Assembly (NCBI RefSeq): GCF_023806625.1
Contig: NZ_JAMTDX010000111.1
Location: 1-56,140 of the forward strand
DNA from: Accumulibacter sp.
GTDB lineage: Bacteria > Pseudomonadota > Gammaproteobacteria > Burkholderiales > Rhodocyclaceae
Reading direction: 5' to 3'
Length of the DNA: 56,140 nucleotides
Below are positions 37,874 to 45,242 of this stretch, piece by piece; position 1 is the first letter of the stretch; each line of letters opens with the position of its first letter. The notes below the pieces were generated by a model. The model made no database searches. It saw only the letters and a program-made list of their open reading frames with translations, and had not been told where the DNA came from. The translations under genes and the position numbers were made by a program.

Positions 37874-39106
37874 ATGCCGGTTCGCTGGCTGTTCGCCGTG
37901 CCCGCGCAGCTGTTGCTCTGTGCGGCGGTGATCGGCTGTTCGACGATCCGCGTCGACGACCGGAGGTCGCCTGAGGGGACGACGCCCGGGACGAGCGCCT
38001 CTGCGCGGTCCGTTGATCAGACGGCGAGGGCGCCGGCGGTCAGCGCGCAAGGCGTTACGGTGCCACCCGTCACTCGCCGCGCGGACGATGCCCGTGCGCT
38101 GCTGGATCGCCTCTTGCCGCGCGGCGTCGACGAGCGCGACGGCTGGGCGGTGGACATCCTGACCGCTTTCGGGGCGCTGCAGATCCCGCCGGACGCCGAG
38201 AGGCTCTGTGCGGTCATCGCGGTGATCGAGCAGGAATCGAGCTTCGTCGCCGATCCGCCGGTACCGGGGTTGGCGCGGATCGCCTGGCAGGAGATCGACC
38301 GGCGGCGCGAGCGGTACGGGATACCCAAGCTCGTCCTCGACCTCGCGCTCGGCAGGTCTTCACCGGACGGGCGAAGCTACCGCGAGCGAGTCGACGCGCT
38401 GCGCACCGAGAAACAGATGAGCCTGCTCTATGAAGAGATGATCGCCGAGCTTCCCGGAGGGAGGACGCTCTTCGCCGGCTACAACCCGGTGCGCACCGGT
38501 GGTCCGATGCAGGTCGGTATCGAGTTTGCCGAAGAGCAGGTTCGCCGGAAGCCCTATCCGTATCCGCGCTCGGGGGGCGTTCGCGCCGAGCTATTCACGC
38601 GCCGCGGCGGGGTCTACTTCGGGGTCGCTTCGCTGCTCGATTACCCGGTGAACTATGGCGAGATGATCTACCGCTTCGCCGATTTCAACGCCGGCCGCTA
38701 CAGCAGCCGTAACGCCGCGTTTCAGGACGCCGTCGTCCGTCTGAGCGGACGACAGCTCGCGCTCGACGGTGACCTGCTGCGTTATCGCGAGGGGGTTGCA
38801 CTGTCCGAGGTCAGCGACAGCCAGCGTGCAGTGATCGCGCTGCAAGGCCGGCTGCAGATGGCCCCCGGGGAGATCGGGCGCGATCTGCGCCTCGAGAAGT
38901 CGGCGGCTTTCGAGAAGACACCACTCTACCTGAGGCTGTACGCGCTTGCCGATGCAGCGAGCGGCGGGCGCCGGCCTCGGGAAACGCTGCCGCAGATCGC
39001 TCTGAGTAGTCCGAAGATTTCTCGTCGGCTGACCACCGAATGGTTCGCCCGGCGCGTCGATGGCCGTTACCGGTCATGTCTCGCGAGAAGTCGGCAGGAA
39101 GGCTGA
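37874..39106 (+). CDS. DUF1615 family lipoprotein
   Basis: The 410-residue protein has a lipoprotein signal (hydrophobic segment then VIGC, Cys22), a disordered linker, and a DUF1615-like domain. The domain includes CAVIAVIEQESSFVADPPVPG, then GPMQVGIEFAEE and GVYFGVASLLDYP. The E-S and GPMQV pattern recalls lytic-transglycosylase-like folds, but I would not claim activity. The ATG at 37874 is seven bases after the ggt stop. Function is unknown. Confidence 0.8.
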   Translation: MPVRWLFAVPAQLLLCAAVIGCSTIRVDDRRSPEGTTPGTSASARSVDQTARAPAVSAQGVTVPPVTRRADDARALLDRLLPRGVDERDGWAVDILTAFGALQIPPDAERLCAVIAVIEQESSFVADPPVPGLARIAWQEIDRRRERYGIPKLVLDLALGRSSPDGRSYRERVDALRTEKQMSLLYEEMIAELPGGRTLFAGYNPVRTGGPMQVGIEFAEEQVRRKPYPYPRSGGVRAELFTRRGGVYFGVASLLDYPVNYGEMIYRFADFNAGRYSSRNAAFQDAVVRLSGRQLALDGDLLRYREGVALSEVSDSQRAVIALQGRLQMAPGEIGRDLRLEKSAAFEKTPLYLRLYALADAASGGRRPRETLPQIALSSPKISRRLTTEWFARRVDGRYRSCLARSRQEG

Positions 39107-39150
39107 GCGCTGCTCGCCGGGGCCGCCGTCGAGGAGTGGCCGTACGGAAA

Positions 39151-40350
39151 CTAGACGACGATGCAGTTTTCCCTGAGAAAGTCGAGCGCCTCGTTGAGGC
39201 TCGTGTCCTCGTCGTCGAGCAGCGTCGCTTCGATTTCAGGAAAGAACTCATTCCACAGCGCTTCGAGGTCGTCCTGCATTTCATGCGGTGCGCTGTCGCG
39301 GATGAACGCCGTCACCAGGGGGCTCGCCAGGCCTTCGGCTCGCGCCTTGCGGACCAGTGTGCGCGCGGCCGACCGGCTCAGCGAAGATCGGGCCGGAACG
39401 CCGGCGGCGAGGCAGACGAACACGGTCAGTAGCGAATGGTCGTCGGTCTTGCCTCCGGTCAGCTTCTTCCAGTTGTTCGACAGAGTCGCGTCGGCGACGC
39501 TGGCATCGTCGATGTCGAACTCGCGCAGGAAGTAGAACGGTTCGATCCGCTGGATGACCTCGTTCAATGGGCGTGAACCGTCGAGTATCTTCGGGATGTC
39601 CTCGGCTTCGACCTTCCTGAGATTGTTCTTGGCGATTGTGGCGCAGGCGGGCGGAAGAGTTTTCATGACTTCGTCGAGCTGCCTCCGTCCGGCGCCCGGA
39701 ACGCCCTTCCCGCGCAATCCCGCGACGATCGCCGCCAGACCGGCACGGGTCGGGATGGCCGGCGGCTTCGAGCCGCTCAGATAGACGAGCACCGCGCTGC
39801 GGATGAGCGACTCCGAGGCGACGGTCGAAATCTCGCTACGTTTGAGCCCGAGGCGCCCGGCGAGTTCGAGCGCGGTGCTGACGACGGCCTGCTGTACCTG
39901 GCGATGCTCGAGCATCCGTCGGTACTCGGCGAGGCTGCGCAAGGACCAGAGGGCGAGGAACTCCTTCTGCGACTGCCGGCCGTCGATTCCGATCGAGCTG
40001 TCTTCGGGCATCGCCCAGAGCCGCTTGAGCATTTCCGAGCCGCCGCGCGAGTGCGAGAGGAACGTGTTCTCGCGCAGCGACCGCGCAGCGGCGTCGAGGT
40101 CGCCGCCGCTCGTTTCCTCGAGATGCAGGCTGACCAGATTGACCATCCGCACCAGCGCCTGCTCGATGTTCGGCCGCAGGTACTGGGTTCCGAAGTACTC
40201 GGCGATCTGCACGATGCCCTTCGGTCCGTCGTCGAGAATCCGCTGTAGCCTCTCCCGGTCGAGAATGCCGGCGCGCACTCCGTGGGCCAGCGCCTTCGCG
40301 AAGAACGGCCGGTCATCGAATACGGCGACCTGACGGCTGCTCGGAGGCAT
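39151..40350 (-). CDS. Conserved hypothetical protein, last gene of the J-domain cluster
   Basis: The 399-residue protein is not recognised. It is soluble, without signal peptide or membrane segment, largely helical, with blocks such as GIVQIAEYFGTQYLRPNIEQ and KTLPPACATIAKNNLRKVEA. The arrangement is vaguely reminiscent of HDOD-type helical domains, but no HD metal motif is visible. It lies 48 bases after the preceding gene of the cluster on the same strand. Codon use resembles its neighbours and gives no sign of recent transfer. Confidence 0.7.
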   Translation of the reverse strand: MPPSSRQVAVFDDRPFFAKALAHGVRAGILDRERLQRILDDGPKGIVQIAEYFGTQYLRPNIEQALVRMVNLVSLHLEETSGGDLDAAARSLRENTFLSHSRGGSEMLKRLWAMPEDSSIGIDGRQSQKEFLALWSLRSLAEYRRMLEHRQVQQAVVSTALELAGRLGLKRSEISTVASESLIRSAVLVYLSGSKPPAIPTRAGLAAIVAGLRGKGVPGAGRRQLDEVMKTLPPACATIAKNNLRKVEAEDIPKILDGSRPLNEVIQRIEPFYFLREFDIDDASVADATLSNNWKKLTGGKTDDHSLLTVFVCLAAGVPARSSLSRSAARTLVRKARAEGLASPLVTAFIRDSAPHEMQDDLEALWNEFFPEIEATLLDDEDTSLNEALDFLRENCIVV

Positions 40351-40398
40351 GTTGGCGCTTTCCCTGGCGCTGGCTCGTTCGACCGATTTGCGCCTGAT

Positions 40399-41124
40399 CT
40401 AGAGCGCGGACTCCTCTTCGGGTTCGGGCGGCCGGACCCGGCCGGGCGCCTGCAGCAACTCGCTCGCTGCGTGGCGGCGCTGTTCCTCCCGCTCTCTCGC
40501 CCGAAGGATCAGCAGGACGTCTCGGAAGATCTCGGGATGTTCGTAGCGCAGCGTCCAGGCGAGTTCCATCCAGTCATGATCGTTGACTTCGGTGTGGTCG
40601 AGAAACGGACGGTTGATCTCCGGGTCCGAGAGGGCGTCGAGTCGCTCCTCGTCGCTCAGTTCGCCAGCCGAACGGTCAGGCTCGCCAAAGAAGTCGAAGG
40701 TGCCGGTGCGGAAGAAATGCTCGACGCTCTCGGCTCGTTCCGAGAGGTAATCGGCGAGTACCTCACAGCCGCCGTCACGTTCGCCGATCGCAGCGAGGAA
40801 CTCGCCTGGATCGCCGTCAGGGCGAAAGACGACCGAGTTGATCATCCCGTGCAGGTGCTGATGAGTCTCGTCGCCGTAGCGCCTTTCGAGAAGCAGGGCA
40901 TCGGCGAATTGCTCGGGGGTGACCAGCAGGCTGACCACGGATTCCCGCGAGGCGTCGAAATCGCGCAGAACGGCGAGCAGGTCCTTGGCCGGGAAGTCGT
41001 CGAGAGCGGCGACCAGTGCCCGGTCACCCTCGCTGTCCACGAGCGAGGCCAGCGCGGCTTCGGCACCGACGATGTCGCCCGCACGGATCAGCCTTTCGGC
41101 CTTGACGAGCACTGGATGACTCAT
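40399..41124 (-). CDS. Hypothetical protein, J-domain cluster
   Basis: The 241-residue protein is acidic, soluble and unrecognised. It begins with a helical repeat-like stretch (LVKAERLIRAGDIVGAEAAL) and ends with a charged Pro/Glu tail. Its ATG overlaps the stop of the upstream gene as ATGA, so translation is coupled. No catalytic motif is visible. Co-translation with a 178-residue protein and a J-domain protein suggests a physical partnership. Confidence 0.7.
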   Translation of the reverse strand: MSHPVLVKAERLIRAGDIVGAEAALASLVDSEGDRALVAALDDFPAKDLLAVLRDFDASRESVVSLLVTPEQFADALLLERRYGDETHQHLHGMINSVVFRPDGDPGEFLAAIGERDGGCEVLADYLSERAESVEHFFRTGTFDFFGEPDRSAGELSDEERLDALSDPEINRPFLDHTEVNDHDWMELAWTLRYEHPEIFRDVLLILRAREREEQRRHAASELLQAPGRVRPPEPEEESAL

Positions 41125-41657
41125 TGCCTGTCCTCCGGGAATCCGCTCCGGCGATCGAAGCCCTGTTCGGCAAGCCAGTCGGCCCCGGCTTCCTCGAGGT
41201 CCTGGCCGGCATCGTCCCGGTCATCCTGAGGAACCTCATCCACGTCGCGCGGTGCGCCCGCTTGCCCTTCCACGGCCGACTGAAGGTACTCGAGACAGGC
41301 GGTGACGACCAGGAAACGATCGCCACCCGGATCATCGAGGACGATTCGCGCGAGCTCTTCGGCCCATGGCTCGAGCTCTACCGACCCGCGCAGTTCGGAC
41401 CACGACGGCAGGGCTTCCGGTTCGAGCCCGGCGAGCCCGCCGATCACTTCGGGCCGTGCGAAGCGCAGGCCACCGTGAAAGACGACGGCGACCATTTCGG
41501 GGCTGTACTCGATCATCGGCAGGATCTCGGCAAGCTGCCGCCGTTTGATCTGCAGGCGCGCACGAAGGACGTCGTGTCCGGCTGAATCGGTCGTCAGGTC
41601 CTCGAGTTCGGCGTCGTATGCCGCCTTGAGGTCTTCGAAAAAGGGGGATAACCTCAC
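41121..41657 (-). CDS. Hypothetical protein, J-domain cluster
   Basis: The 178-residue protein is soluble, strongly acidic towards its C-terminus (EVPQDDRDDAGQDLEEAG), and unrecognised. It starts with GTG at 41657, sharing GTGA with the stop of the J-domain gene. It ends in an ATGA shared with the next gene. This tight two-sided coupling indicates that its product is needed in fixed ratio with its neighbours. Confidence 0.7.
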   Translation of the reverse strand: MRLSPFFEDLKAAYDAELEDLTTDSAGHDVLRARLQIKRRQLAEILPMIEYSPEMVAVVFHGGLRFARPEVIGGLAGLEPEALPSWSELRGSVELEPWAEELARIVLDDPGGDRFLVVTACLEYLQSAVEGQAGAPRDVDEVPQDDRDDAGQDLEEAGADWLAEQGFDRRSGFPEDRQ

Positions 41658-41932
41658 TGCACGATCCCTTCGATGTAGTGTTTCCAGATTTCGCGTGCCG
41701 TCTCGAGAGGCTTGTCGAGCAGGTTGCGCCGCCGGTTCTCGTCGTAGGTGTGGCGGCGTCCCGCGTCGGACAGCGCCTCGTAAGCTTCCTGGACGTCGCG
41801 GAACTGTTCGGTTGCCTCGGGCGCCGCATTGCGATCAGGATGCAGGCGCAGCGCCTTCCGCCGGTAAGCCGCGCGGATCGCTTCGGCAGAGGCATCGCTG
41901 GCCAGACCCAGCACGGCGTAGTAGTCCTTCAT
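41654..41932 (-). CDS. Small J-domain (DnaJ-like) protein
   Basis: The 92-residue protein is a J-domain (DYYAVLGLASDASAEAIRAA, with the Hsp70-activating HPD at residues 31-33) plus a 25-residue tail. It lacks the Gly/Phe, zinc-finger and substrate domains of DnaJ, so it is a class C co-chaperone that would recruit DnaK to a specific client. Its start lies nine bases after the metF stop, and its stop overlaps the next gene. The downstream unknown proteins are the most likely partners or clients. Confidence 0.88.
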   Translation of the reverse strand: MKDYYAVLGLASDASAEAIRAAYRRKALRLHPDRNAAPEATEQFRDVQEAYEALSDAGRRHTYDENRRRNLLDKPLETAREIWKHYIEGIVQ

Positions 41933-41941
41933 GCCACTCCG

Positions 41942-42847
41942 TCATGCCGGTCGGGAGCCATCGCCCGTCGCCCCGTCGCCGTGGACGGCCGTAGTCCCGG
42001 CGGCCCTCTGGTGCAAGCCGAGCCGTAGCCACAACGTGCTGATCAGCGCCACCTGGTTGAGGGTGTAGAAGTGCAGGCCTGGCGCCCCGCTGGCCAGCAA
42101 CTTTTCGCAGAGCGCCGTCACCACGTCGAGCCCGAAGGCGCGGATCGACGTACTGTCGTCACCATAGCTTTCGAGTCGCTTGCGAATCCAGCGCGGAATC
42201 TCGGCGCCGCAGTTGTCGGAAAAACGGGCCAGGCTGCTGAAGCTCGAGATCGGCATGATTCCCGGAACGATCGGTACGCGGATGCCCATCGCCTGGCACT
42301 CGCCGACGAAATGGTCGTAAGCGTCGAAGTTGTAGAAGTACTGCGTGATCGCCGAATTGGCGCCGGCATCGAGTTTGCGCTTGAGAGCCAGCAGGTCGTC
42401 GAGCGGGCTCTTCGCCTGCGGGTGATACTCGGGGTACGCGGCGACCTCGATGTGGAACCAGGCGCCGGTTTCCGCGCGAATGAACTCGACGAGCTCGTTG
42501 GCGTAGCGGAAGGTTCCCGGTCTGGCCATCCCCGAAGGCAGGTCGCCGCGCAAGGCTACGATCCGGTGGATGCCGTGTGCGCGATACTGATCGAGGATCT
42601 TGCGGATGCTCTCGCGCGTCGAGCCGATGCACGACAGGTGCGGTGCGGCGACGTGCCCCTCGCTCTGGATTTCGAGCACGGTGTCGAGCGTCCGGTCGCG
42701 CGTCGAGCCACCTGCACCAAAAGTCACCGAAAAGAAGTCCGGCCCGAGCAGGGCCAGGCGCGCCCGCGCTTCACGAAGCTTCTCTGCGCCTTCGGGCGTC
42801 TGGGGGGGAAACAGCTCGAGGCTGAACGTGTCGGCTGGCTGGGACAT
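41942..42847 (-). CDS. metF: Methylenetetrahydrofolate reductase
   Basis: The 301-residue flavoprotein reduces 5,10-methylene- to 5-methyl-tetrahydrofolate for methionine synthesis. Family marks are SLELFPPQTPEGAEKL, FFSVTFGAGGSTRDRT, RGDLPSG, ITQYFYN and PGIMPISSF. Length is standard. It follows the small membrane protein by nine bases and ahcY further upstream, which places it in the SAM/homocysteine cycle operon under the SAH riboswitch. Confidence 0.96.
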   Translation of the reverse strand: MSQPADTFSLELFPPQTPEGAEKLREARARLALLGPDFFSVTFGAGGSTRDRTLDTVLEIQSEGHVAAPHLSCIGSTRESIRKILDQYRAHGIHRIVALRGDLPSGMARPGTFRYANELVEFIRAETGAWFHIEVAAYPEYHPQAKSPLDDLLALKRKLDAGANSAITQYFYNFDAYDHFVGECQAMGIRVPIVPGIMPISSFSSLARFSDNCGAEIPRWIRKRLESYGDDSTSIRAFGLDVVTALCEKLLASGAPGLHFYTLNQVALISTLWLRLGLHQRAAGTTAVHGDGATGDGSRPA

Positions 42848-42856
42848 GGGCGAAAC

Positions 42857-43210
42857 TCATTGCCGGCTCCTGCCGAAGGGCAGGAGCGCGGCGAAGATCG
42901 ACGAGAAAACGCTGTACAGGATCGCGCCAAACAAGCCTGGCCAGAATCCGCTGACGACGAAGCCTTCAAGTAGCGAGCCCGCCAGCCAGAACATCAGGCC
43001 ATTGACGACAAGAACGAACAGTCCGAGAGTGAGCAGCGTGACGGGTAGCGTCAGGACGATCAGGATTGGCCGGAGCAGGGCATTGACCAGCCCGAGGACG
43101 ACTGCCGCGAGCAGCGCCGACCCGAACGACGCGATCTCGATCCACGGCATCAGATAGGCGACGCCCATCAGCGCCAGTGCATTGAGCACCCAGAGAAGGA
43201 TCAGTCGCAT
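42857..43210 (-). CDS. Small four-helix membrane protein (phage holin family IV type)
   Basis: The 117-residue protein has four hydrophobic segments and matches the family labelled phage holin family 4 superfamily IV. In betaproteobacteria it is regularly found between ahcY and metF, so it is a chromosomal housekeeping neighbour, not a phage gene. The ATG at 43210 gives MRLILLWVLNALALMGVAY, the usual N-terminus. It is 24 bases after ahcY. Its role in the methyl cycle, if any, is unknown. Confidence 0.85.
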   Translation of the reverse strand: MRLILLWVLNALALMGVAYLMPWIEIASFGSALLAAVVLGLVNALLRPILIVLTLPVTLLTLGLFVLVVNGLMFWLAGSLLEGFVVSGFWPGLFGAILYSVFSSIFAALLPFGRSRQ

Positions 43211-43234
43211 CGCCGCTGCGCGTCCCGGCAACTC

Positions 43235-44647
<1,413 letters not shown>

Positions 44648-44757
44648 AGCAAGGCTCCTTCAGCGAGGTGCCCGGAATGGAACGCCGTAGCGTGCGCTTG
44701 GCTGACGACTGGCGCATGCGCCCACCCAGCTTCCCATGCCCGGCACGGGGTTGGTTG

Positions 44758-44824
44758 GATGAGCGCCGTTGGTGAAATCCGAGCCTGAGACTGTCGGCAG
44801 ACAGCCCTGCAGCGCTCCTCAGAT
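44758..44824 (-). promoter_or_regulatory. S-adenosylhomocysteine (SAH) riboswitch
   Basis: The minus strand reads GAGGAGCGCTGCA, a hairpin (GCTGTC...GACAGT), CAGGCTCG and AACGGCGCTCATCC in order. This matches the SAH riboswitch (ahcY motif): P1 forms between GAGCGC and GCGCTC, and CAGGCTCG supplies the binding core and pseudoknot. It begins a few bases after the predicted transcription start. The 110 bases to the GTG contain GC-rich inverted repeats that could serve as expression platform. SAH binding normally switches ahcY on. Confidence 0.9.
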
Positions 44825-44831
44825 CAACTCG

Positions 44832-44860
44832 ATTATAACGGCTGGCCAGCGGACTGGCCA
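44832..44860 (-). promoter_or_regulatory. Sigma70 promoter of the ahcY operon
   Basis: On the minus strand TGGCCA (44855-44860) is followed, after 17 bases, by a perfect TATAAT (44832-44837). Transcription would start near 44825, directly at the edge of the riboswitch. The -35 overlaps the hairpin that follows the previous gene. Confidence 0.7.
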
Positions 44861-44862
44861 GC
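44841..44862 (-). terminator. Perfect 9-bp hairpin between NusG-II gene and ahcY promoter
   Basis: GCTGGCCAG, a TCCG tetraloop and CTGGCCAGC make a perfect 9-bp stem, three bases after the stop of the NusG-domain gene. It lacks a T-run and overlaps the -35 of the ahcY promoter. It may terminate rapZ-operon transcripts. Because GCTGGCCAGC is itself a palindrome present twice, it could also be an operator. Confidence 0.5.
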
Positions 44863-44864
44863 GG

Positions 44865-45242
44865 TCAGTAGGCCAGCGAATCGTAGGCCGAGCGGTACCC
44901 GCGTACCTCGATGCTGACCTGATTCGGGGCGCAGATGGTCATCTCTCCAGGGCGTGCGAGCCATCCCTGGCGCACGCAATACTGGCGCGGGCCGGGGTCG
45001 GCAGCCACGCGGACCCGCCGCCGATCGACGACGACCGAGGTGACGCCCAGTGGTCCGGGGACCTCGATCGTCCTGTTTCTCGACAGGTCGAGCTCGGCGT
45101 ACACCTCGCCGCCGCGTCTGACGACGGCCTTTTCGGCGACTCCGGCCTGCCAGGCGAGCGGGAACGAGAGAAGACATCCAGTCAGCACCAGGCCGGCGAC
45201 GAGCCAGTCACCGGGCCGGAACAGATCCAGCCAGCCAATCAC
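44865..45242 (-). CDS. NusG domain II-containing protein
   Basis: The 125-residue protein has one N-terminal hydrophobic segment (LVAGLVLTGCLLSFPLAW) and a small domain of the NusG_II family. Marks are VTSVVVDRRRVRVAADPGP, YCVRQGWLARPGEMTICAPN and VSIEVRG. It is probably membrane-anchored and periplasmic. It starts with GTG at 45242, sharing GTGA with the rapZ stop, so the two are coupled. In bacteria this family often neighbours redox or FMN-linked genes; here the role is unknown. Confidence 0.8.
   Translation of the reverse strand: MIGWLDLFRPGDWLVAGLVLTGCLLSFPLAWQAGVAEKAVVRRGGEVYAELDLSRNRTIEVPGPLGVTSVVVDRRRVRVAADPGPRQYCVRQGWLARPGEMTICAPNQVSIEVRGYRSAYDSLAY

Follow-up and report, generated by a model that had tools for sequence, protein, structure and literature searches.

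The window analysed here is a stretch of 56,140 nucleotides from Accumulibacter sp., and four closely spaced genes lie on its minus strand. We call them atcJ, atcA, atcB and atcC, after the Shewanella operon with which they are compared below. atcJ (41654..41932; coordinates of all four genes include the stop codon) starts with ATG and encodes a J-only co-chaperone of 92 amino acids, and atcA (41121..41657) starts with GTG and encodes 178 residues. atcB (40399..41124) and atcC (39151..40350) both start with ATG and encode 241 and 399 residues, respectively. A GTGA is common to atcJ and atcA (41654-41657), an ATGA is common to atcA and atcB (41121-41124), and 48 bases separate atcB from atcC. 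An earlier reading of the same DNA (the original prediction) had given these four frames, their lengths, the overlaps and the spacing, and all of them are correct on the minus strand.

Upstream of atcJ and outside the module, the same strand carries a metF-like gene (41942..42847), a gene for a membrane-like protein of 124 amino acids (42857-43231) and an ahcY-like gene (43235-44647) that runs in the same direction as atcJABC; we take the first and the last to be metF and ahcY from their translations. The gap between the stop of the metF-like gene and the start of atcJ (41932-41942) is 9 bases long and contains a GGAG. The metF-like gene is possibly a co-transcribed neighbour of atcJ. A scan of positions 38900-45000 returned 2 promoter-like sites (0.5 expected) and 2 terminator-like sites (3.2 expected). 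A minus-strand sigma-70-like site was placed at 44832-44860, upstream of ahcY; neither of the terminator-like sites lies where atcC ends.

The J protein matches Pfam DnaJ at 1.7e-23 and carries its HPD at residues 31-33, in agreement with the J-only protein of 92 residues that had been predicted. It shares with AtcJ a make-up of a J domain with an HPD and little else (92 versus about 94 residues). The NCBIfam model for the cold adaptation J protein, NF050028, matches nearly the whole protein at 7.8e-13; its 48.7 bits fall short of the cut-off of 150, and several other DnaJ models score higher. The C-terminal tail reads PLETAREIW, a proline and a tryptophan spaced by seven residues (PX7W). We found this spacing in 30 of 33 J proteins, the one in the window included, and in all four Shewanella AtcJ proteins compared, whose tails read PNGAMRELW and similar. 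Both the name PX7W and the importance of this AtcJ tail motif are reportedly due to Weber et al. 2023.

The tail tryptophan is missing from three of the 33 J proteins (L074, L076 and L079). In L074 and L076 it is replaced by alanine (PLEVAQEIA) and the whole operon is retained; these two tails would make a natural experiment on the docking of AtcJ to AtcC. The source genome encodes a DnaK that is 72% identical to E. coli DnaK. Besides atcJ, it holds four J-domain places, one of them under the cut-off.

Conservation and distribution of the four genes

Matches to the 399-residue AtcC were found in 26 of 41 genomes (the source genome, the same genus and the same order). Outside the source genome this gave 25 AtcC matches; 20 of these loci were analysed by tblastn and the other 5 were left out. 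In all 20, the genes follow one another as J-A-B-C in the same order and on the same strand. With start codons picked by script, the first two genes overlap by 4 bases in 19 loci and by 1 base in the remaining one. In a set of 15 more distant stretches, 12 also contain all four profiles in order; among the other three, L077 and L078 are the two parts of a single operon interrupted by contig ends, and L080 is a divergent copy. Because the order is kept in 20/20 relative loci and in 12/15 further stretches, the four-gene arrangement is not due to chance. The original prediction had proposed gene order in relatives as a check, and the outcome bears it out.

The metF neighbourhood is more restricted. 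Of 18 loci of the same genus, 16 have a metF relative upstream of atcJ; of the two exceptions, L041 is cut off by a contig edge. Among the 16 stretches counted from other genera, none has one there. This count includes L067, whose contig begins inside atcJ, and leaves out L077, which holds no atcJ. The genes J-A-B-C thus keep together as a unit, and metF is not part of it.

A profile search of 399 genomes of the order gave 17 positive genomes, including the source genome, in 12 of 159 genera. Across 369 genomes of the class, the AtcB profile had a single match, the source genome itself. The AtcC family model at E 0.001 matched none of 274 class genomes, with the source genome among them, and none of 14 controls; because it was silent even in the controls, the 0/274 says nothing about absence. 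Thus, the distribution of the operon is patchy, and it is so within Shewanella as well. Of eight Shewanella genomes searched, those of L101, L102, L083 and L089 among them, four gave no AtcC match and the other four are above the cut-off.

Identity of the AtcA, AtcB and AtcC families

Taken singly, the window proteins AtcA, AtcB and AtcC had no significant family in Pfam and NCBIfam, and a PDB sequence search with them gave nothing better than E 1. Window AtcA and AtcB did not match the NCBIfam Atc models, and window AtcC matched NF047890 (AtcC) at E 0.01, with 15.3 bits against a cut-off of 370 bits. None of the window proteins reached the curated cut-offs of NF050028, NF047888, NF047889 and NF047890. 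The families gave a clearer picture. When 17 members of each were scored, all 17 AtcC proteins matched NF047890 (best 3e-4, with E values of up to 1 allowed), 6/17 AtcA proteins matched NF047888 (AtcA; best 2.1e-4), and 1/17 AtcB proteins matched NF047889 (AtcB; 0.0016). AtcA, AtcB and AtcC are the NCBIfam families with the lowest E-values for the three sets, and they come in gene order; no other NCBIfam family matched more than two members, and none did better than 0.0014. The original prediction had recognised no family for any of the three proteins.

Pfam matched the same sets weakly, with a best value of 0.0049. One helix of AtcB matched the Pfam model ScsC_N in 9 of 17 members (best 0.0093), more than the single member matched by NF047889. 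The ScsC_N model has 34 positions, and this is presumably a chance helix match.

We compared the families with Shewanella proteins directly. Shewanella genomes were reached by a 16S pattern, 8 of them were searched, and the four operons whose AtcC was above the curated cut-off were used. All sixteen pairs of profiles were aligned with hhalign, with 33 rows per family on our side and 4, 3, 4 and 4 rows for J, A, B and C on the Shewanella side. The four matched pairs gave probabilities of 99.27% for J-J (over 87 columns), 94.07% for A-A (89 columns), 48.60% for B-B (62 columns) and 93.09% for C-C (258 columns), versus at most 0.59% for the 12 mismatched pairs. Identities in these profile alignments between the window families and Shewanella ranged from 20 to 31%. 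A profile search had been suggested for the three unknown proteins, and it paired each of them with its Shewanella counterpart; AtcB is the weakest single link in the identity.

A divergent Atc-like operon from another family of the order (L080:2444-4905) encodes an AtcC of 286 residues and a J protein with the tail PNEEALSLW, and resembles the Shewanella operon in size. The J, B and C profiles were scored on it, and its second gene (A) was left unscored in the profile scan. With L080 added to the Shewanella side, the hhalign probability went up to 96.31% for B and 97.24% for C and down to 93.02% for A; the gain is partly circular because L080 was found with the profile of the window family itself. 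On its own, L080 was linked to the window families through J (99.7%), B (97.2%) and C (95.0%) but not through A (1.2%). Compared with Shewanella, L080 alone was linked through J only (A 0.2%, B 10%, C 0.8%).

Taken together, these comparisons indicate that the four genes are very probably homologues of atcJABC and make up a remote copy of that operon. It must be called remote because no window protein reaches an NCBI Atc cut-off, and for the same reason the proteins are not filed under the four narrow NCBIfam equivalogs. Besides these low scores, several points speak against the identity: the weak B-B link, with more ScsC_N than NF047889 matches in the AtcB family, an AtcC one third longer than that of Shewanella, the three J tails that lack the tryptophan, the poor links of L080 to Shewanella and the patchy distribution. 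A new J-protein module, unrelated to atcJABC and resembling it in gene order only, would be in keeping with the failure of the window A and B proteins to match Atc models and with the weakness of the Pfam matches. We consider it highly improbable, because the profile comparison gave four matches on the diagonal and none off it; in addition, the curated Atc models match the family members in the right order.

AtcB and AtcC each have features of their own. The single-sequence structure model of AtcB is helical with a pLDDT of 71, and Foldseek found no match to it at E 0.001 or better. MgtE- and FliG-like rows came up with values that the tool describes as common, and the Pfam matches of the 17 AtcB family members include no model for MgtE; we make no claim to such a fold. 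The corresponding model of AtcC had a pLDDT of 38 and was unusable. Structure prediction was another check that had been proposed. The C-terminal tail of AtcB (gene end, 40399-40420) is near-invariant, ending in ESAL in 28 and ESAI in 3 of 33 rows, and to judge from its sequence it looks like a short docking motif.

Residues 11-287 of AtcC align with Shewanella AtcC, which leaves about 110 residues at the C-terminus unmatched in that alignment. This extra part is as conserved as the remainder (mean 0.59 in both). AtcC measures 398-416 residues in the other 32 rows, and many columns are invariant between residues 44 and 115.

A putative bridge from DnaK to a cellular target

In Shewanella oneidensis, AtcJ has 94 residues with the HPD at 31-33 and stimulates DnaK 3.3-fold; it is needed at 7 °C, and so are its last 21 residues (PMC6715715). 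Deletion of atcB or atcC causes the same cold defect, and deletion of atcA causes none. AtcJ binds AtcC with an affinity of 7 nM, mainly through the AtcJ tail, and AtcC binds AtcB; AtcC is the only protein found to bind AtcJ, and no contacts were seen for AtcA (PMC6715715). The idea of the original prediction that the J protein connects DnaK with a partner from the same operon has thus been demonstrated in Shewanella. The prediction had also taken the tight coupling to mean one complex. The coupling is real and the neighbourhood is conserved, but a complex of all four proteins is unsupported in Shewanella because only AtcC binds AtcJ and contacts of AtcA went unseen.

By analogy, we infer the following steps in this organism. 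The J domain of AtcJ would engage DnaK and stimulate it through the HPD, and the short tail with PX7W would dock on AtcC. AtcC would bind AtcB, and AtcB would contact a cellular target, which according to one sentence in the report of a 2020 meeting is RNA polymerase. DnaK would in this way be brought to the transcription machinery and would keep it running, especially at low temperature; AtcA would be an accessory protein. Given the Shewanella biochemistry, the HPD and PX7W tail of the window AtcJ and the DnaK encoded in the genome, we think it likely that AtcJ, AtcC and AtcB form such a bridge and recruit DnaK here. We lean towards a role in cold growth in this organism. The RNA polymerase step is conjectural in general, and we give RNA polymerase as the target in this organism slightly less than an even chance.

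If the genes are atcJABC, the same complex may still serve a purpose other than growth in the cold, acting through the extra part of AtcC on a different target. The conservation of the extra C-terminal residues of AtcC, equal to that of the remainder, and the ahcY-metF neighbourhood in this genus would suit this reading, as would the expression of the S. oneidensis operon from 7 to 37 °C, for which the authors allow other roles (PMC6715715). Yet metF was upstream in none of the 16 stretches counted from other genera, and nothing here points to any particular alternative function; we regard a different purpose as tentative and rather doubtful. The original prediction had seen the unknown proteins as a possible client and its partners. 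On this view, and again if the genes are atcJABC, AtcC, AtcB or both would be clients presented to DnaK by AtcJ, much as IscU is presented to HscA by HscB. Maillot et al. 2019 discuss this as one model, but according to the same authors an affinity of 7 nM between AtcJ and AtcC is unfit for a transient client contact (PMC6715715), and we find a hand-over of this kind unlikely.

The genes may also represent a distinct Atc subtype, marked by the C-terminal domain of AtcC and the ESAL tail of AtcB, with a DnaK target or conditions that differ from those in Shewanella. We hold this to be conceivable but on the whole improbable. As part of such a reading, the AtcC domain of about 110 residues would have been either gained here or lost in Shewanella. 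The AtcC extension, the AtcB tail, the missing tryptophans and the patchy distribution make a subtype possible; they do not prove a different function.

Relation to known co-chaperone systems

The locus had been put forward as a candidate new module. It is not a new system: it is a remote member of the atcJABC cold-adaptation co-chaperone network, known from Shewanella since 2019. With this identity, three genes that have no Pfam match above the cut-off gain names and a testable role, and a cold co-chaperone system is traced in an order other than that of Shewanella. The 2023 study by Weber et al. in Environ Microbiol (doi 10.1111/1462-2920.16478) may already cover this: it is said to describe a short AtcJ subfamily with a PX7W tail in environmental proteobacteria, with atcABC neighbours in beta- and gammaproteobacteria, and its set may include the present case. 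The NCBI Atc models miss these genes or reach them far below the cut-off. The deep divergence also yields an alignment from which conserved contact residues can be picked, for instance in the AtcJ tail or the N-terminal half of AtcC.

HscB/HscA-IscU is another system in which a dedicated J protein is encoded beside its partner (PMC6715715), as atcJ is beside its partner gene here. HscB models give the window AtcJ only weak matches (0.036 and 0.056), which are confined to its J domain.

The closest known system is atcJABC of S. oneidensis MR-1 (SO_1850, SO_1849, SO_1848 and SO_1846; Maillot et al. 2019, PMC6715715), also treated in PMC7871303 and PMC10939069. The window operon differs from it in lying downstream of a metF-like gene, and in that atcJ overlaps atcA, whereas S. 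oneidensis atcJ is reported 120 bp upstream (PMC6715715). AtcC has 399 residues in the window versus 297-299 in the four Shewanella genomes, and AtcB has 241 versus 252 in S. oneidensis; the ESAL/ESAI tail of the window AtcB family contrasts with DDMF(S/T)FLD in the four Shewanella proteins. On the other hand, the window shares with S. oneidensis the gene content and order, the J-only protein with its HPD at 31-33, the atcA-atcB overlap and similar sizes of J, A and B (in S. oneidensis 94 aa for AtcJ, 540 bp for atcA and 759 bp for atcB; in the window 92, 178 and 241 aa). In the comparison with the four other Shewanella genomes, all four products are homologous and the PX7W tail recurs.
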